A stretch of DNA of 64,000 nt, taken from a virus. The notes under the pieces were generated by a model. It saw only the letters and a list, made by a program, of their open reading frames with translations. It did not search any database and was not told the DNA's origin. Each line of letters opens with the position of its first letter. The first letter of the stretch is position 1. The stretch covers positions 1-64,000 of the IMG/VR virus record IMGVR_UViG_3300037153_000881. One strand, given 5' to 3'. A program made the position numbers and the translations under genes. Shown one piece after another: positions 45,557 to 53,897 of the stretch.

Positions 45557-45710
45557 CCACCACATCCTGTTGTGCGAGGAGTGGCTGAAAGAGCACTCGC
45601 CGCCGGCCCGCCACCCACGCGGCCTGGCAAGGTCAACCAGCCGGCCCATGTGGTGCGGCCGCGTATGGACCCGTGCTAGCGTCGGGCCGAGTTTGGGATT
45701 GACGACATGA
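45528..45710 (+). CDS. Possible small basic protein (60 aa)
   Basis: Starts at a GTG (45528) inside the end of the preceding gene, in another frame: MLLIANQPGDHHILLCEEWL. Its TGA overlaps the ParB-like start as ATGA, which supports translation; ribosome binding site is weak. Composition is Arg/Trp/His-rich. Real but unproven. Confidence 0.4.
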   Translation: MLLIANQPGDHHILLCEEWLKEHSPPARHPRGLARSTSRPMWCGRVWTRASVGPSLGLTT

Positions 45711-46288
45711 CCCAGGCGACGAATGACCTGACCGAGCTGGTCAGCCAGGCACAGTTGGTTCCGCTTTCGAGCCTGCGCCCAGCCGTTTGGAATCCTAGGG
45801 TCATTCGATCCGAGCGCATGAAGAACCTGATGCGCTCGATCGAGCGCGACCCGGACATGCTGCGGCTGCGGCCGGTGCTGGCCAGGCTGAACGGCGAGAT
45901 CTACGCCGGCAACCAGCGTTACCTGGCCTGCCAGCAGCTCGGCCGCGAGACGATCTGGGCGCATCTCGAGGACGTCTCCGAACAGGTCGCCAAGGAGCGC
46001 GCGCTGCGCGACAACAACGAGTGGGGCGCCTGGGACGACGACAAGCTGCGCGACATGGTCGCCGATCTCAAACAGCTGGGCTCCGACGTCGCGCTGCTCG
46101 GTTTTGACGACAAGGAGCTGCAGGCGCTGATGGGCGGCCGCGGCATGCCGGCGCCGGGCGACGCGGACACCGACGCGACGGAGCATCTGTTCGGGGTGGT
46201 GGTCACCTGCAGCGACGAAGCGCAACAGGTCGAGCTGCTCGAGCGGCTGACCGAAGAGGGCTACGACGTGCGCGCGCTGGTCTCTTGA
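45707..46288 (+). CDS. ParB-like nuclease-domain protein
   Basis: A 193-residue protein. VPLSSLRPAVWNPRVIRSER (residues about 18-37) followed by RPVLARLNGEIYAGNQRYLA matches the ParB/sulfiredoxin-type fold, with the GNQRY segment corresponding to the GxxR/H box that binds nucleotide. The C-terminal half is helical and acidic. Phages often carry such proteins beside DNA-modification or methylase genes. It opens the accessory cassette. Confidence 0.8.
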   Translation: MTQATNDLTELVSQAQLVPLSSLRPAVWNPRVIRSERMKNLMRSIERDPDMLRLRPVLARLNGEIYAGNQRYLACQQLGRETIWAHLEDVSEQVAKERALRDNNEWGAWDDDKLRDMVADLKQLGSDVALLGFDDKELQALMGGRGMPAPGDADTDATEHLFGVVVTCSDEAQQVELLERLTEEGYDVRALVS

Positions 46289-46304
46289 TGACGCGAGTAT
46301 TGGG

Positions 46305-46502
46305 GTGTGTGATTTCTGCGGCGACCCAGGCGACCACAACAAGCCGTACGAGGTTGGCCGCGAGGACCTGGTGGTGCTGCGACTGGTGCCCGCCGAGTTG
46401 CACGCGTTGACGCGGCTGCGCACGCACGTGCGCGACGTGCAGCTGCGCGGCTACGACCAGGGCCCCGCCGCGGGCGACGTCCAGGCGGATGCGGAGTCAT
46501 GA
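46305..46502 (+). CDS. Small CxxC protein (65 aa)
   Basis: Starts at GTG 46305: MCDFCGDPGDHNKPYEVGRE. A single CDFC knuckle at the start; the rest is helical and basic. Ends in an ATGA overlap with the ABC/GNAT gene, so likely translated together. Role unknown. Confidence 0.5.
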   Translation: MCDFCGDPGDHNKPYEVGREDLVVLRLVPAELHALTRLRTHVRDVQLRGYDQGPAAGDVQADAES

Positions 46503-47749
46503 CCACGACAGCTGGGCCTCTGGTGGCGCACGTCAGGAACGAGGTGGCCGTCAAAAAGTCCGTACGCACGATGCAGGTTTCGTCAATGTTCGACATCCCG
46601 CCGCACGAGCGCAGCACGAGCGAGTGGACCGTGTCTCTGCCCCTGCACGAGCGGGACTGGGGCGTGGGCCTGATCGTCGGGCCATCAGGGGCAGGCAAGA
46701 CGAGCGTGGCCCGCGCCCTCTTCCCCGAGCAACTCGTCGCCGAGTTCGCGTGGCCCGCGGAGCGCAGCATCCTGGACGCGTTCCCGGAGGGCATGTCGAT
46801 CAAGGACATCACCGGCTCGCTGACCGCCGTCGGCTTCGGCTCGCCGCCGGCCTGGTTCCGTCCGTACGCCAGCCTGAGCACCGGCGAGCAGTTCCGCGTG
46901 ACGATCGCCCGTGCGCTGGCCGAAAGCCCGGACCGGGTGGTCATCGACGAGTTCACCAGCACCGTCGATCGGCAGGTGGCGCAGGTCGCCTCACACGCGA
47001 TCCAGAAGGCGGTCCGCCGCGCGAAGCGGCAGCTGGTAGCGGTGACGTGCCACTACGACGTCGTCGACTGGCTGCAGCCCGACTGGATCTACCAGCCGCA
47101 CACGGGCGAGTTTGCCTGGAGGTTTCTTCAACGACACCCGCCCCTGGAGCTCCGTCTCCATTCGGTCCATCACTCCGTCTGGCCGGTGTTTGCACGTCAT
47201 CACTATCTGAGTTCAGAACTGAACAAGTCCGCGGTGTGCTTCGGCGGCTGGATCGGCGACGAGCTGGTGGGTTTCACGTCGTACCTGCATCTGCCGCACT
47301 ACCGCGTCAAGAACGTGAAGCTCGGCCACCGGCTGGTGGTGCTGCCCGACTACCAGGGGCTGGGCATCGGCGGGCGCATGGACGACTGGCTCGGCCAGAA
47401 GCTGTACGAGGAGGGGTACCGCTACCACAACGTGGTCTCGCACCCGGCGATGATCGCGTACTACTCGGCCTCGCCCCGCTGGCGGCTGTTTCGAGGGGCC
47501 GGAGCCAAGTCGTACCCGCTGCACAGCTACGGCTCACTCGAAAAGAACCCGACGCTGGTGCGGCGCCACGCGCACCCGCGCAACCTGCAAACCATGGCCT
47601 TCGAGTACGTGCCGCCCATTCAAGAGGGGGGGGTAGCTGTATGCCGTTCGGCGCCGACTGCGAATTTGCGGACTTCGCCGCCTGTGTCAGGCACTTCTCG
47701 AGCGGCAAGAACAAGAAGTCCAACCCGCGCGCGTACTGCGCCCAGTTAA
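46499..47749 (+). CDS. ABC-type ATPase fused to GNAT acetyltransferase
   Basis: A 416-residue fusion. N-terminal ABC-type ATPase: Walker A GPSGAGKT (61-68), signature LSTGEQ (126-131), Walker B RVVIDE (146-151), candidate switch His185. C-terminal GNAT: HHYLSSELNKSAVCFGGWIG and VLPDYQGLGIGGRM (281-294), the QxxGxG acyl-CoA loop. An 8-G run at 47626-47633 precedes a TAG; with 7 G the protein would stop at residue 378, and the last 38 residues look like a frame artefact. ABC-GNAT fusions occur in phages and have been proposed to act on DNA bases or nucleotides; that role is inference here. Confidence 0.85.
   Translation: MTTTAGPLVAHVRNEVAVKKSVRTMQVSSMFDIPPHERSTSEWTVSLPLHERDWGVGLIVGPSGAGKTSVARALFPEQLVAEFAWPAERSILDAFPEGMSIKDITGSLTAVGFGSPPAWFRPYASLSTGEQFRVTIARALAESPDRVVIDEFTSTVDRQVAQVASHAIQKAVRRAKRQLVAVTCHYDVVDWLQPDWIYQPHTGEFAWRFLQRHPPLELRLHSVHHSVWPVFARHHYLSSELNKSAVCFGGWIGDELVGFTSYLHLPHYRVKNVKLGHRLVVLPDYQGLGIGGRMDDWLGQKLYEEGYRYHNVVSHPAMIAYYSASPRWRLFRGAGAKSYPLHSYGSLEKNPTLVRRHAHPRNLQTMAFEYVPPIQEGGVAVCRSAPTANLRTSPPVSGTSRAARTRSPTRARTAPS
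47626..47633 (+). other. G8 homopolymer that sets the ABC/GNAT C-terminus
   Basis: Eight consecutive G at the 3' end of the gene. Losing one G brings TAG (47634-47636) into frame and gives a 378-residue protein ending 4 bases before the next gene's start. Such a tract is prone to slippage in replication, transcription or sequencing. Confidence 0.7.
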
Positions 47750-47865
47750 TGAAGGCGACCGAGGAGCACTGCGCGAAGCAGCGCGCGGCCCAGCACGTGC
47801 CCGCCGAGCCGCCGCCGGCCGAAGCGCCCGCGGAGTGGCCCATGCCACCGCGCGTGGGCCCATGA
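47641..47865 (+). CDS. Small Cys-containing protein (74 aa)
   Basis: MPFGADCEFADFAACVRHFS then AYCAQLMKATEEHCAKQ. Proteins of the form CEFxDFxxCVxH...C occur widely in phages, sometimes as fusions; function unknown. The ATG lies directly after the natural end expected for the ABC/GNAT gene. Pro-rich end, ATGA overlap with the PanD-like gene. Confidence 0.65.
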   Translation: MPFGADCEFADFAACVRHFSSGKNKKSNPRAYCAQLMKATEEHCAKQRAAQHVPAEPPPAEAPAEWPMPPRVGP

Positions 47866-48224
47866 AGAACTGGGTTGCCGCCAAGATCCACGGCATCGTG
47901 GTGACCGACCGGCACTTCAACTACCACGGCTCGGTCACCATCGCCGAACGACTGCTGGAAGCCGCGGGCATCGAGCCGTACGAGCAGGTCCACGTGGTGA
48001 ATCTCGAGAGCGGCGCGCGCTGGGTGACGTACGCGCTGCCAGGCCCGGAGTCCGTGTTCGAAACCAACGGCGGCGGGGCGCACCTGGCCAAGCCTGGCGA
48101 TCGGTGCGTGGTCATGACGTACGCCATGACCGAGCGCTTCGAGGGCGCGCGGGTACTGATGATGCGACTCGAGGGCGAGGCGCTGCTGCCGAACGTCGAC
48201 TTCGATCTGCTGCGCTATCCGTGA
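47862..48224 (+). CDS. panD: Aspartate 1-decarboxylase (PanD) homologue
   Basis: A 120-residue protein, near the usual PanD length. Motifs that match PanD: AKIHGI (Lys8, His10), NYHGSVTIA (Tyr21 with the Gly23-Ser24 self-cleavage pair that forms the pyruvoyl group), GARWVTYALPG (Arg53, Thr56, Tyr57), TNGGGAHL (Asn69, His74) and PGDRCVVMTYA. So the catalytic set appears intact. PanD turns L-aspartate into beta-alanine for pantothenate and coenzyme A. Whether this phage version uses aspartate, and its processing, are unknown. ATGA and GTGA overlaps tie it to both neighbours. Confidence 0.88.
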   Translation: MKNWVAAKIHGIVVTDRHFNYHGSVTIAERLLEAAGIEPYEQVHVVNLESGARWVTYALPGPESVFETNGGGAHLAKPGDRCVVMTYAMTERFEGARVLMMRLEGEALLPNVDFDLLRYP

Positions 48225-48310
48225 GCGACGAGCAGCTGCGCCTGGTGATGTTCGCCGCACTGGTTGTCACGTTCCTGGTCATCCTGGTCATGCGCGGGAG
48301 CAACTGGTGA
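48221..48310 (+). CDS. Single-helix membrane peptide (29 aa)
   Basis: Starts at GTG 48221: MSDEQLRLVMFAALVVTFLV, then ILVMRGSNW. GTGA overlaps at both ends, with PanD and CoA-transferase genes, make it very probably translated. Typical one-helix peptide that could anchor or regulate one of the cassette proteins. Confidence 0.6.
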   Translation: MSDEQLRLVMFAALVVTFLVILVMRGSNW

Positions 48311-49023
48311 GGGCAATGCGCGTTCTGGAACTAGGGAACTATGTTTCTGTCGCCTACGCGGGCATGCTGCTCGCCGAGCAGGGGTTCGAGGTGACCAAGT
48401 GGGTGGCGCCCGAGCCGGCGCGCGATCCGATCCTCGGTCTGGACCACGGCGACGAGCTGTGGGCGTGGATCAACGCGGGCAAAACGCTGGTCGCGCGCCG
48501 GGCCCACGAGCTCGCGCAGCTGCCGCTGGGCGACGTCGGGATCGTGCTGGATAACGTTCGACCGGCCACGCTGGCCAGCTGGGGCATCGAGCCGGCCACG
48601 CTGGCGCAACGCTGGGCGGTGGTGTGGGTCAGCCTGCGCAGCGAGGTCGGCGAGCGCAGCTTCGACGTCGTCGCCCAGGCGCGCAGCTGGATGGAGTACG
48701 GACCCTGGCTGCCGATCTACCTGGGCGACACCACCGCCGGGCTGATGATGGCCTTCAAGGCGCTGGCCAAACTCGCCCGCCACGAGCCCGGCCACTACGT
48801 CCTCGGCCAGGCCAGCTGCTTACAGAAACTTGTCGAGGGCGAGCTGGTGGTCGATGCGCCGCTGCGCGAGCAGAACACGCGCTGGGACCTCGACGAATAC
48901 TGGGCCGGGCCCGACGGCGCCCACGTCTGCTACCGCGGCGAGCTGCTGCGCGAGCCGATTCGCGATCGCGCCTGGAAGCTCGAGCACCTGTACCACGACG
49001 GGGCCGGACGGATCCGCCTCTAA
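48307..49023 (+). CDS. Shortened CaiB/BaiF (family III) CoA-transferase-like protein
   Basis: A 238-residue protein, versus about 400 in the family. RVLELGNYVSVAYAGMLLAE opens like family III members; DNVRPATLASWGI, VVWVSLRSEVG, RSFDVVAQARS and IYLGDTTAGLMMAFKALAKL follow in family order. Asp141 in LGDTTAG corresponds to the nucleophilic Asp of formyl-CoA transferase. The C-terminal region is shorter, so whether it can dimerise as an interlocked ring is open. GTG start with GGGAG 6 bases upstream and GTGA overlap. It ends back-to-back with the PAS gene. Confidence 0.75.
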   Translation: MRAMRVLELGNYVSVAYAGMLLAEQGFEVTKWVAPEPARDPILGLDHGDELWAWINAGKTLVARRAHELAQLPLGDVGIVLDNVRPATLASWGIEPATLAQRWAVVWVSLRSEVGERSFDVVAQARSWMEYGPWLPIYLGDTTAGLMMAFKALAKLARHEPGHYVLGQASCLQKLVEGELVVDAPLREQNTRWDLDEYWAGPDGAHVCYRGELLREPIRDRAWKLEHLYHDGAGRIRL

Positions 49024-51431: not shown

Positions 51432-53897
51432 ATGGTCATTTCGGCGAGCCAGCGCCGGCAGATCGAGCGCACCGCGGCCAACCTGGGAGCCGAACTGCTG
51501 AACGGCCCTCCCCTTGCGCCGACGCCACCGCCCAGGCAACTGCTGCCAGCGCCGCGAGTACCGCGCGGCGGCGCGCGGCAGGAAGGCCCGTGGATGCTCG
51601 AACGGAGCCCGGACGGCAGCGCACGCGTGCGCGCCAATCTGCACCCCGGCCAGAGCGCGGCGATGGCCAGCCGCGCCCGCACGATCGCCATGATCGCCGG
51701 GTCGCAGAGCGGCAAGACCTCGAGCGGGCCGCTGTGGCTGGAGCGCGAGATCCGCCTGCAGGGGCCGGGCGACTACCTGGCCGTGACGGCGACCTTCCCA
51801 CTGCTGAAGCGCAAGATGCTGCCGGAGTTCCTGCGGTTGTTCCAGGGCACGCTCAATCTGGGCACGTGGATGGCCGCGGACAAGATGTTCGTCTTCCACG
51901 ACAACCAGACCCGCGTGCTCTTTGGATCGGCGACCAATCCCGAGTCGCTCGAGTCGGCGACGGCCAAAGCCGCCTGGCTCGACGAGGCCGGCCAGGCGCA
52001 GTTTCGGCTCGAGTCGTACGAGGCCATCGACCGCCGCCTGGCGCTGTACGAAGGACGTCGGTTCATTTCGACGACGCCGTACAACCAGGGGCCTCTTTTC
52101 ACCACCGTCTACAAGCCCGCGGTCGACGGCGACCCGGACATCTGCGTCATCCAGTTCGCGTCCTCGCTGAACCCGTCGTTTCCGATCGAGGAGATGGAGC
52201 GCCAGCGCGACAAACTGCCGCTCTGGAAGTACCGCATGTTCTTCGAGGGCCGCTTCGACAAGCCGCCGGGCCTGATCTACTCGGACTACGAGGACAGCTA
52301 CCGCGAGCAGGGCGGGCACCTGATCAAGGCGCGCACGATGCCCATCCCGGCGTGGTGGCCGCGCTACATCGGCCTGGACTTCGGCGGCGTGCACCTGGCG
52401 CGCATCTTCATCGCCCAGGACCCGCTGACCAACACGTTCTACGTGTACGACGAGCAGCTCTCGGGCGGGCGGACCGCCTCGCAGCACGCCCAGGACATCC
52501 TCCAGCAGCTGGGTGGCGCGCCGCTGTACCGCTCGTGGGGCGGCGCCAAGAGCGAGGACAGCTGGCGGCTGGAGTTCACCGCGGCCGGGCTGGTGGTCGA
52601 ACCGCCGCCGGTCTCCGACGTGGAGGTCGGCATCGACCGCGCGATCGAGCTGTTCAAGGCTCGAAGGCTGTTCGTCTTCGACACGTGCGTGGGCTTGCGC
52701 TCGGAGCTGGGCACGTACTCGCGCAAGGCCGGCCCGGACGGCGAGCCGCTCGAGGACATCCAGGACAAGGCCGCCTATCACCGCTGCGTGACGGCCGGAA
52801 CGCTCATCGAGACCCGCTCCGGACTACGACCGATCGAGCAGATCAGACCGGGCGAGCTGGTGCGGACGCGTCAGGGGTTCCGACGTGTGCTGGACAGTGC
52901 GCTGACGGAGCGACAGGCCAAGGTCCTGACACTCGAGCTGAGTGATGGCCGGAAATTGACAGCGACGCCTGAGCATCCCATCTGGGTGCGCAAGCGTGGT
53001 TGGGTAAGAATGGACGCACTGCGATACGCTATGGCGGTCGAATGCAGCCCTTCACGCCCCCAGCCCGCGAATACAAGTCCGAGGTGGTCGTCTTCCAGGG
53101 CATCACCTACCGGCGCTACCCGGAAGCGGAAGATGAGCATCGCCGCAACTACTTCCACGCCAGTGAAAACACCGGCGGCCGCCCGCGGTATCTCCACATC
53201 GCCATCTGGCAAGACGCGACCGGACAGAAGCTCCCTAAAGGCTGGGTGGTTCATCACGACGACCACAACCCACTCAACAACGACCCCTCGAATCTCAAAC
53301 CGATGTCGCAAGCCGAGCACAACCAGCACCACTTCCGCGGGCCGGGGGCAAGTCCCGCGAGGCTGGCGCATCTGGAGCGAGTTCGTGCGCAGGCCGTGGA
53401 GTGGCACAGCTCAGAGGCTGGTCTGGCGTGGCACGCCAAACATGCTCGAGAAGCTTGGGCGAAGCGTCAGACAGCCAAGCGCAGCTGTGAGCAGTGCGGC
53501 ACGAGCTTCGAGTCGATCACGCGGCGCGCGAGCGATCGCTTCTGTTGCAACTCGTGCAAGTCGAGTTGGCGGCGGGCCAGCGGCGTCGACAACGAGACGC
53601 GCACGTGTGCCTGGTGCGGACAATCCTTCGAGACGAACCGGTACTCACGCATTCGCCATTGCTCGCGCAGTTGTTCGAGCAAGGCCAGGATGTCTGGTCG
53701 TCCGAGTAGTCCGCGAGACCGAGCCACGGGACGTTTTCAATCTGACGGTTGAAGGCGAGCACGAATACTTCGCGAACGGCATCCTCGTCTCGAACTGCGA
53801 CGCGCTCCGGTATCTGTGCTCGGGCTTGAGCGGGCCGCAGCAGCCGCTGCCGGTGCTGGCCATGGGCCGCGCGCGGGGCTGGCAACCGCGCTATTGA
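51432..53897 (+). CDS. terL: Terminase large subunit, interrupted by an intein
   Basis: The reading frame is 821 codons. N-terminal extein: Walker A GSQSGKT (90-96), Walker B AAWLDEAG, IGLDFGGVHLAR in the nuclease half with the first metal Asp, and GLRSELG before the junction. At Cys 452 an intein begins (52785); after Asn (53795) the C-extein CDALRYLCSGL restores the ADALRYL nuclease motif. Spliced protein about 484 residues. Its ATP-driven motor packages DNA through the portal. SD GAGG precedes the ATG. Confidence 0.9.
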   Translation: MVISASQRRQIERTAANLGAELLNGPPLAPTPPPRQLLPAPRVPRGGARQEGPWMLERSPDGSARVRANLHPGQSAAMASRARTIAMIAGSQSGKTSSGPLWLEREIRLQGPGDYLAVTATFPLLKRKMLPEFLRLFQGTLNLGTWMAADKMFVFHDNQTRVLFGSATNPESLESATAKAAWLDEAGQAQFRLESYEAIDRRLALYEGRRFISTTPYNQGPLFTTVYKPAVDGDPDICVIQFASSLNPSFPIEEMERQRDKLPLWKYRMFFEGRFDKPPGLIYSDYEDSYREQGGHLIKARTMPIPAWWPRYIGLDFGGVHLARIFIAQDPLTNTFYVYDEQLSGGRTASQHAQDILQQLGGAPLYRSWGGAKSEDSWRLEFTAAGLVVEPPPVSDVEVGIDRAIELFKARRLFVFDTCVGLRSELGTYSRKAGPDGEPLEDIQDKAAYHRCVTAGTLIETRSGLRPIEQIRPGELVRTRQGFRRVLDSALTERQAKVLTLELSDGRKLTATPEHPIWVRKRGWVRMDALRYAMAVECSPSRPQPANTSPRWSSSRASPTGATRKRKMSIAATTSTPVKTPAAARGISTSPSGKTRPDRSSLKAGWFITTTTTHSTTTPRISNRCRKPSTTSTTSAGRGQVPRGWRIWSEFVRRPWSGTAQRLVWRGTPNMLEKLGRSVRQPSAAVSSAARASSRSRGARAIASVATRASRVGGGPAASTTRRARVPGADNPSRRTGTHAFAIARAVVRARPGCLVVRVVRETEPRDVFNLTVEGEHEYFANGILVSNCDALRYLCSGLSGPQQPLPVLAMGRARGWQPRY
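52785..53795 (+). other. Intein in the terminase large subunit
   Basis: Cys1 opens the element (CVTAGTLIETRSGLRPIEQI), block B is TATPEHPIWV, and the end carries VFNLTVEGEHEYFANGILVS followed by Asn and +1 Cys. All splice residues are present. Splicing would join YHR to CDAL, exactly restoring the nuclease motif. The region between block B and the end (about 240 residues) reads as nonsense in this frame because an HNH gene occupies another frame. Confidence 0.9.
53042..53752 (+). CDS. HNH homing endonuclease nested out-of-frame in the intein
   Basis: A 236-residue protein starting MQPFTPPAREYKSEVVVFQG. HNH core: KGWVVHHDDHNPLNNDPSNL (residues about 67-85), then AEHNQHH with the second His. 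The C-terminal half holds two zinc-finger-like units, CEQCGTSF and CAWCGQSF, each with partner Cys pairs (NSC, HCSRSC). It is in the +2 frame relative to the intein, and its end overlaps the intein's last blocks. GGCGG 4 bases before ATG is a weak ribosome binding site. Confidence 0.85.
   Translation: MQPFTPPAREYKSEVVVFQGITYRRYPEAEDEHRRNYFHASENTGGRPRYLHIAIWQDATGQKLPKGWVVHHDDHNPLNNDPSNLKPMSQAEHNQHHFRGPGASPARLAHLERVRAQAVEWHSSEAGLAWHAKHAREAWAKRQTAKRSCEQCGTSFESITRRASDRFCCNSCKSSWRRASGVDNETRTCAWCGQSFETNRYSRIRHCSRSCSSKARMSGRPSSPRDRATGRFQSDG

Follow-up and report, generated by a model that had tools for sequence, protein, structure and literature searches.

A phage cassette of ParB-like, ABC-ATPase/GNAT, PanD-like and CaiB-like genes as a candidate DNA-acylation system with its own donor supply

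Why would a phage carry homologues of an aspartate decarboxylase (PanD) and of a CaiB-type CoA-transferase in the same run of genes as a ParB-like protein and an ABC-ATPase/GNAT fusion (ABC-GNAT)? The question is raised by positions 45707-49023 of the window, the whole 64,000-base stretch analysed here, which covers bases 1-64000 of the 82,708-base IMG/VR virus record IMGVR_UViG_3300037153_000881. An initial annotation, made from the sequence alone, described a cassette of seven coupled genes that might make an unusual acyl-CoA and attach its acyl group to phage DNA or to a host target. We find that four of the seven genes form a core that recurs, in the same order, in a cultured phage and in many other loci, and we tentatively read this core as a DNA-acylation system that supplies its own donor.

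All seven frames are present, head to tail on the + strand, in the order ParB-like, CxxC, ABC/GNAT, small Cys, PanD-like, one-helix peptide and CaiB-like. As the initial annotation had described, most junctions are of the ATGA or GTGA type: four of six are 4-base overlaps (ATGA at 46499 and 47862; GTGA at 48221 and 48307). The ParB-like and CxxC genes are separated by a 16-nt gap. The features are as follows (aa, amino acids; GC3, GC content at third codon positions).

45707..46288, + strand: ParB-like (ParB/Srx-fold) protein, 193 aa, the proposed DNA-targeting subunit (ParB_N, PHROG, association with ABC-GNAT)
46305..46502, + strand: small CxxC protein, 65 aa, probably not core (GC3 0.89; no family)
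46499..47749, + strand: ABC-ATPase/GNAT fusion, 416 aa as read, the proposed acyl-transferring enzyme (ABC_tran, Acetyltransf_1; homology ends near 47632)
47641..47865, + strand: small Cys protein, 74 aa, probably not core (GC3 0.91; no family above cut-off)
47862..48224, + strand: PanD-like pyruvoyl-dependent decarboxylase, 120 aa (PF02261)
48221..48310, + strand: one-helix membrane peptide, 29 aa, probably not core (GC3 0.93)
48307..49023, + strand: CaiB-like shortened class III CoA-transferase, 238 aa, the proposed omega-aminoacyl-CoA maker (PF02515, fold, D141)

Viral and genome contigs were scanned with PanD, CaiB and ABC-GNAT queries, and all collected loci were then scanned with profiles. 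This recovered 46 loci with a CaiB-like protein, the window included, which form 22 clusters at 90% identity. A PanD gene lies -11 to 94 nt upstream of the CaiB gene in 17 of these clusters. ABC-GNAT comes before PanD, at -1 to 336 nt, in 16 of the 17 (the other contig begins inside PanD), and ParB comes before ABC-GNAT in 14 of the 16, the two others being contigs that begin ~75 nt before ABC-GNAT or inside it. Sixteen of the 17 PanD-CaiB clusters are phage or viral contigs, and one is a 4.3-kb Planctomycetales assembly contig (L045), whose ABC-GNAT reads as two separate fragments. The cultured Rhodococcus phage Jace, grown in the laboratory on Rhodococcus erythropolis RIA 643, has the same four genes in the same order, annotated as ParB-like (gp85), ATP-binding protein (gp86), aspartate decarboxylase (gp87) and hypothetical (gp88). 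Because the same order and strand recur in many distinct loci, the grouping of the four genes is not a matter of chance. Distances between ABC-GNAT proteins correlate with those between CaiB-like proteins (Pearson 0.84 over pairs of 15 loci). Outside the 17 clusters, Alsobacter metallidurans (L046) encodes ParB-ABC/GNAT-CaiB with PanD 4.6 kb upstream, and three further CaiB clusters are actinobacterial genomes (L043, L044 and L047). Co-occurrence in relatives, on which the initial annotation had staked its reading, is thus what was found: ABC/GNAT-PanD-CaiB recurs, with ParB ahead wherever the contig reaches.

Of the seven-gene cassette as first drawn, the ParB-like, ABC/GNAT, PanD-like and CaiB-like genes stand, but the CxxC, small Cys and one-helix frames recur only in near-identical copies of the window phage. 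These three were compared by blastp against open frames of at least 40 codons from 136 sequences, a database that could miss a peptide as short as the 29-aa one-helix frame, and only the near-identical copies were matched; for the small Cys protein, all good matches among the compared loci were to such copies. Neither the CxxC nor the small Cys protein matched a Pfam family above cut-off. On these grounds a core role is not supported for any of the three, with frames of fewer than 40 codons lying outside the database.

The families named in the initial annotation held up on profile search. Pfam matches lie above cut-off for ABC_tran, Acetyltransf_1, Asp_decarbox and CoA_transf_3. ParB_N is just under, by 0.4 bits (25.9 bits; cut-off 26.3), but the best PHROG ParB family is matched strongly (4.9e-23). 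The ParB-like protein also matches phrog_498, annotated as 'DNA methyltransferase', at positions 26-180 of 633 (5e-23).

The fusion protein matches ABC_tran at 33.3 bits (cut-off 25), Acetyltransf_1 at 28.9 bits (cut-off 20.7) and phrog_11143 at 9.9e-99. Among its 16 aligned members, the Walker A (G61, S63, G64, G66, K67), signature (L126, S127, G129, E130) and Walker B (D150-E151) residues are invariant, as is the QGxG acyl-CoA loop (Q286-G287-x-G289). In the AlphaFold2 model (pLDDT 78.7, pTM 0.67) the ABC part matches ABC ATPases in the Protein Data Bank (PDB). The best 50 matches to the whole model are ABC ATPases or parts of ABC transporters only, so the fold search does not inform on the GNAT part. 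The core of the protein ends at an eight-G run (47626-47633), and the frame overlaps the small Cys gene because it passes this run and continues for 38 codons. The GC content of these last codons by codon position is 0.55/0.87/0.45, against 0.66/0.46/0.88 in the core. The tail thus has the base composition of a frame that does not code, and the actual protein probably stops near 47632. None of the 15 aligned relatives has a tail of such length, and the near-identical contig L005 has a frame as long as that of the window.

ABC-GNAT itself is widespread in phages: it is carried by 70 annotated phage records and at least 595 viral stretches. The best 80 of these at least 595 loci were examined and form 71 clusters at 90% identity. 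ParB is immediately upstream in 68 of the 71. PanD and CaiB occur together near ABC-GNAT in seven clusters and never one without the other; of these seven, L014 and L067 are a single lineage by CaiB, and L058 is a near-copy of the window. A second, diverged ABC-GNAT copy directly follows CaiB in the L013/L016/L067 family, perhaps for a second target site.

The PanD-like protein very probably is a working pyruvoyl decarboxylase. It matches Asp_decarbox (PF02261) at 98.9 bits (cut-off 25), and a profile built from 16 members finds a solved aspartate 1-decarboxylase at 3.7e-27. The E. coli positions K9, Y22, G24-S25, R54, T57, Y58 and N72 are retained in all 17 cassette members; among them are what we take to be the self-cleavage site (G24-S25) and the catalytic lysine, arginine, tyrosine and asparagine. 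Two features suggest that the substrate has perhaps changed. The window protein scores 65.4 bits with TIGR00223, under the equivalog cut-off of 106 above which the same substrate is expected, and A74-A75 (E. coli numbering) is replaced by G-G in 15 of the 17 members, the window included. PanD also occurs without CaiB in four viral-contig clusters (L019 to L022, L024 to L028). At one of these loci (L019 6001-9592), the cassette-type PanD-like gene is directly followed by genes that, judged from their open reading frames, we take to encode two TauD-type dioxygenase-like, one desaturase-like and one radical-SAM-like protein.

The CaiB-like protein matches CoA_transf_3 (PF02515) at 41.6 bits (cut-off 23.3), covering profile positions 4-186 of 366 only. 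Class III CoA-transferases head the lists when its AlphaFold2 model (pLDDT 85.9, pTM 0.82) is used for a fold search (VIA: Z 16.6, rmsd 3.3, 184 aligned), the match being confined to model residues 1-191. D141 is invariant in 20 of 20 members and aligns (hhalign) with D169 of E. coli Frc, within a GDxxxG context in both. The protein therefore shares with Frc, YfdE, CaiB and Rv3272 the fold of residues 1-191 and the catalytic aspartate, but it differs from them in size. All 20 aligned members are ~210-240 aa long, short of a full two-domain subunit (about 350-430 aa); the solved chains listed have 352-430 aa, and the aligned ranges place the missing block in the middle of the usual chain. Relatives begin at the ATG of 48316. 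Two of 50,697 annotated phage records carry the CaiB-like protein, both of them Jace. Twelve plasmid records were matched, none over 80% of the query, and nine of the 12 are annotated as CoA-transferases. Among sampled genomes it was seen in one of 394 in the class of L044, so that this type of actinobacterial locus is rare, and in one of 289 in that of L046; both are the genomes on which the searches were centred.

What, then, does the CaiB-like protein act on? The three actinobacterial genomes provide a clue. Their CaiB-like proteins are 55-58% identical to that of the window, and directly upstream of each lies a pyridoxal phosphate-dependent group II decarboxylase (PF00282) in place of PanD (L043, Promicromonospora panici; L044, Actinopolyspora biskrensis; L047, Actinobacteria bacterium OK074). 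One CoA-transferase family thus stands beside two unrelated amino acid decarboxylases. The swapped decarboxylases are 30-36% identical to E. coli GadB and retain its H275-K276 and R422. Only that of L044 was compared with the PDB, where its best matches are glutamate decarboxylases (3.8e-74). Downstream of CaiB, L044 and L047 encode an aldehyde dehydrogenase. Among its solved matches, gamma-aminobutyraldehyde dehydrogenase ranks first for the L047 protein and third for that of L044, where a putative aldehyde dehydrogenase and a putative betaine aldehyde dehydrogenase stand above it. The same three proteins head both lists, far above the rest in L044. This dehydrogenase-like enzyme probably makes gamma-aminobutyric acid (GABA). 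For L043, no aldehyde dehydrogenase was seen among the gene calls, which for this and other loci came from a home-made GC3 rule that fails in AT-rich loci, and no dedicated search was made. These loci resemble the phage cassette in placing the same CaiB-like protein beside an amino acid decarboxylase, in L044 and L047 with the dehydrogenase-like gene as well, but differ in that no ABC-GNAT was found in the three genomes, where the best matches (20-26 bits) are like other ABC ATPases. Because PanD or a glutamate-decarboxylase-like enzyme adjoins CaiB, twice with an aminobutyraldehyde-dehydrogenase-like gene, the neighbourhood suggests that the CaiB-like protein probably takes an omega-amino acid as CoA acceptor, either GABA or beta-alanine from aspartate. 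The pairing of decarboxylase and CoA-transferase as makers of a donor, first proposed for the window, is strengthened by this swap in bacteria.

The other half of the cassette has precedents. Iyer et al. 2013 (Nucleic Acids Research), as cited in PMC7824862, predicted that an ABC-ATPase/GNAT system puts an unknown acyl group on a DNA base, and this citing paper from 2021 still calls the chemistry uncharacterized. The predicted system and the window cassette have in common the coupled ABC and GNAT domains, the nucleobase acylation being predicted in that citation, but in the cassette a dedicated decarboxylase and CoA-transferase follow, which suggests what the acyl group might be. The same source describes Mu Mom, the enzyme of momylation at adenine N6, as a GNAT-superfamily member for which transfer of an acyl group, for example glycyl, from CoA to a base has been proposed. 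No ABC, ParB, PanD or CaiB gene is present in the 2.7 kb of Mu around mom. Acyl transfer to phage DNA or a host target, as put forward in the initial annotation, gains from the ParB-like neighbour of ABC-GNAT in 68 of 71 clusters and from the independent prediction of base acylation (cited in PMC7824862), but base acylation by ABC-GNAT had, as a general idea, already been published. Nor is the set unique, since Jace has the same four core genes. The passages on Jace in the Rhodococcus phage paper PMC13313380 make no mention of DNA modification. A search of titles and abstract openings found no phage PanD or CaiB-type enzyme described with ABC-GNAT or ParB; an earlier mention in Iyer 2013 or Krishnan 2020 (ABC ATPases) is possible. 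The ABC-GNAT platform was already known as a prediction; the donor-making module appears to be new.

Further hints come from genes for ASCH proteins. With an ASCH profile built from seven cassette neighbours, an ASCH gene was found within 3 kb in 21 of the 71 ABC-GNAT clusters and near CaiB in 9 of the 22 CaiB clusters; two of the 21 and seven of the nine match by construction, because they were used as profile seeds. The window phage has its ASCH gene at 70102-70593 of the record, 21 kb from the cassette. Could these proteins erase an acyl mark? YqfB is an ASCH enzyme that hydrolyses N4-acylcytosines using Thr24, according to parts of PMC6972931. The equivalent position is Glu in eight of eight aligned ASCH sequences, that of the window phage included, whereas K21 and R26 are kept. 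A YqfB-type eraser was rejected because this nucleophile is missing in all eight, and the substitution makes a reader likelier than a YqfB-like hydrolase as the role of the neighbouring ASCH proteins. In Jace, gp89 (L003 13105-13425, - strand) is annotated as a helix-turn-helix DNA binding protein and resembles the cassette ASCH genes (PWA...ENRxW motif); it is one of the profile seeds. Near the ASCH gene of the window phage lies a Cys-containing protein (L002 8035-8931; record 71035-71931), presumably of the phage Gp37/DUF5131 type. At another locus (L039 6662-7921), a Cys-rich protein follows CaiB, and its frame also matches the ASCH profile (54 bits).

The ABC-GNAT gene is directly followed by another small-molecule enzyme in some phages. 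A Formyl_trans_N gene occupies this place in Gordonia phage Sisko and nine more Gordonia phages, in Pseudomonas phage Komp_PAO1_1 and in a Porphyromonas phage. That of Sisko (gp3; L057 1814-2464) is annotated as a tRNA-methyltransferase, but Pfam assigns it to Formyl_trans_N (4.5e-10). Five unannotated records also match the formyltransferase-like proteins at 22-27% identity. These cassettes share with that of the window the ABC-GNAT gene, with an annotated ParB upstream in Sisko, and the enzyme directly after it, but the partner is formyltransferase-like instead of PanD and CaiB. The formyltransferase-like genes were found in none of the 71 ABC-GNAT clusters nearest the window and belong to more distant ABC-GNAT branches. 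PurN and Fmt formylate the free amines of aminoacyl groups, and by analogy a formyltransferase partner would fit a target that bears an aminoacyl group. The activity is unsure, because all three aligned proteins lack the Asn of the PurN NIH motif. In EastWest, Pmp13, LE4 and SL25, no small-molecule enzyme partner was seen beside ABC-GNAT in the annotation.

How might the parts work together? Our preferred reading, to which as a whole chain we give a little less than an even chance, is that the core cassette acylates DNA and supplies the donor for it. The PanD-like protein would gain its pyruvoyl cofactor by self-cleavage at Gly-Ser and would decarboxylate aspartate, or perhaps glutamate, yielding beta-alanine or GABA. 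The CaiB-like protein would then move CoA from a host acyl-CoA to this omega-amino acid via an aspartyl thioester at D141, giving beta-alanyl-CoA (or 4-aminobutyryl-CoA). The GNAT domain would pass the aminoacyl group from this donor to a phage DNA base, at an exocyclic amine, with the ABC domain powering or gating the loading and the ParB-like protein picking the DNA sites. Being bulky and positively charged, the mark would protect the genome from nucleases before packaging, and the ASCH proteins encoded nearby may read it. A more specific version is possible, though we hold it with clearly less confidence: an omega-aminoacyl DNA mark made via a self-made CoA thioester, with a minimal CoA-transferase as loader, a modular ABC-GNAT writer whose donor or tailoring enzymes are swapped (PanD plus CaiB; formyltransferase-like) and ASCH proteins as readers.

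Several observations weigh against DNA acylation with a dedicated donor. PanD and CaiB are both absent from the analysed stretch in 64 of the 71 ABC-GNAT clusters, so ABC-GNAT does not need this donor, and one locus (L037) has ParB-ABC/GNAT-CaiB without PanD on its 10.5-kb contig. The correlation between PanD and CaiB distances is weak (0.42). So is, taken alone, the alignment that pairs D141 with Frc D169 (E 0.005, probability 7%), and the CaiB-like protein, much shorter than the known enzymes, may not be a full CoA-transferase. The G-G loop may mean that the PanD-like protein has a substrate other than aspartate; nor is the change specific to the cassette, since G-G is also found in the lone PanD of L019 and A-G in three other lone PanD proteins. 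The sole comparison rate for ASCH comes from PanD-only clusters, of which none of four has such a gene. Finally, no likeness was detectable between a 16-row GNAT profile and a single Mu Mom sequence (hhalign probability 0.3, 14 columns); by this one method and one Mom sequence, membership of the Mom family found no support.

So, is DNA the target? The main rival explanation retains the enzymes and the omega-aminoacyl-CoA but has ABC-GNAT acylate a host or phage protein or a tRNA, for take-over or translation control, and gives ParB no role beyond that of a nucleotide switch. Proteins are common targets of GNATs, and Jace has six tRNA genes. The phage GNAT Rac acetylates host RNA polymerase, as mentioned in PMC7824862, and a bacterial ParB-fold/acetyltransferase fusion binds GTP according to PMC12704722, so ParB may act as a switch instead of as a guide to DNA. 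We consider a protein or tRNA target unlikely. The ParB partner (68 of 71 clusters) and the ASCH gene at no more than 3 kb (21 of 71) point to DNA, if not decisively. Terminase genes are near ABC-GNAT in four of the cultured phages examined, and the ParB-like protein is related to a 'DNA methyltransferase' family; both point the same way, and neither is decisive.

The decarboxylase could instead act late, on an aspartyl or similar acyl group already attached to the base, as in thymine hypermodification, where decarboxylation in putrescinylthymine is post-replicative; the CaiB-like protein would then be a CoA-binding handler of the donor. Such a larger substrate could be accommodated by the G-G loop, which 15 of 17 cassettes have. 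However, three bacterial genomes in which ABC-GNAT was looked for and not found still have CaiB next to an amino acid decarboxylase. This speaks for a free amino acid as the molecule that accepts CoA and leaves late decarboxylation quite improbable.

With a slimmer chance still, PanD and CaiB may be ordinary auxiliary metabolic genes that raise host CoA or pantothenate and lie beside ABC-GNAT by accident. PanD is the known source of beta-alanine for pantothenate, and it occurs without CaiB in the four other viral-contig clusters, as would suit such a role. To our knowledge, a CaiB-type enzyme has no place in pantothenate synthesis. The tight, often overlapping and conserved order in 17 of 22 clusters, the score of the window protein under the equivalog cut-off, and the replacement of PanD beside CaiB by a glutamate-decarboxylase-like enzyme, which has no part in making pantothenate, together make a plain pantothenate gene unlikely. 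Least probable of all, and very improbable, is that the unit is a regulated decarboxylase without acyl transfer, in which the GNAT would bind PanD and drive its self-cleavage as does PanZ/PanM, a GNAT protein on which PanD maturation depends in E. coli: the two genes are adjacent in the cassette, but 64 of 71 ABC-GNAT clusters are without PanD in the analysed stretch, and the 15 records with a PanD match share with 40 of the 70 annotated ABC-GNAT phage records none but the two of Jace.

Given how widespread ABC-GNAT is in phages, donor-making genes beside it in a cultured phage are of practical value. They point to a likely donor, and what ABC-GNAT attaches, and to what, becomes a question for mass spectrometry in Jace. 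Should the DNA-acylation reading be true, amine-bearing acyl marks would join the decorations of phage DNA, offering a route to chemically addressable DNA, and the CaiB-like protein would be a naturally minimised class III CoA-transferase.

Downstream of the cassette, at 51432-53897 (+ strand) of the window, is a gene for a large terminase with an in-frame intein. Two of the three best Hint/intein matches are just under cut-off; the Hint/intein-splicing matches lie at residues 452-788, inside the match to the phrog_2 terminase.

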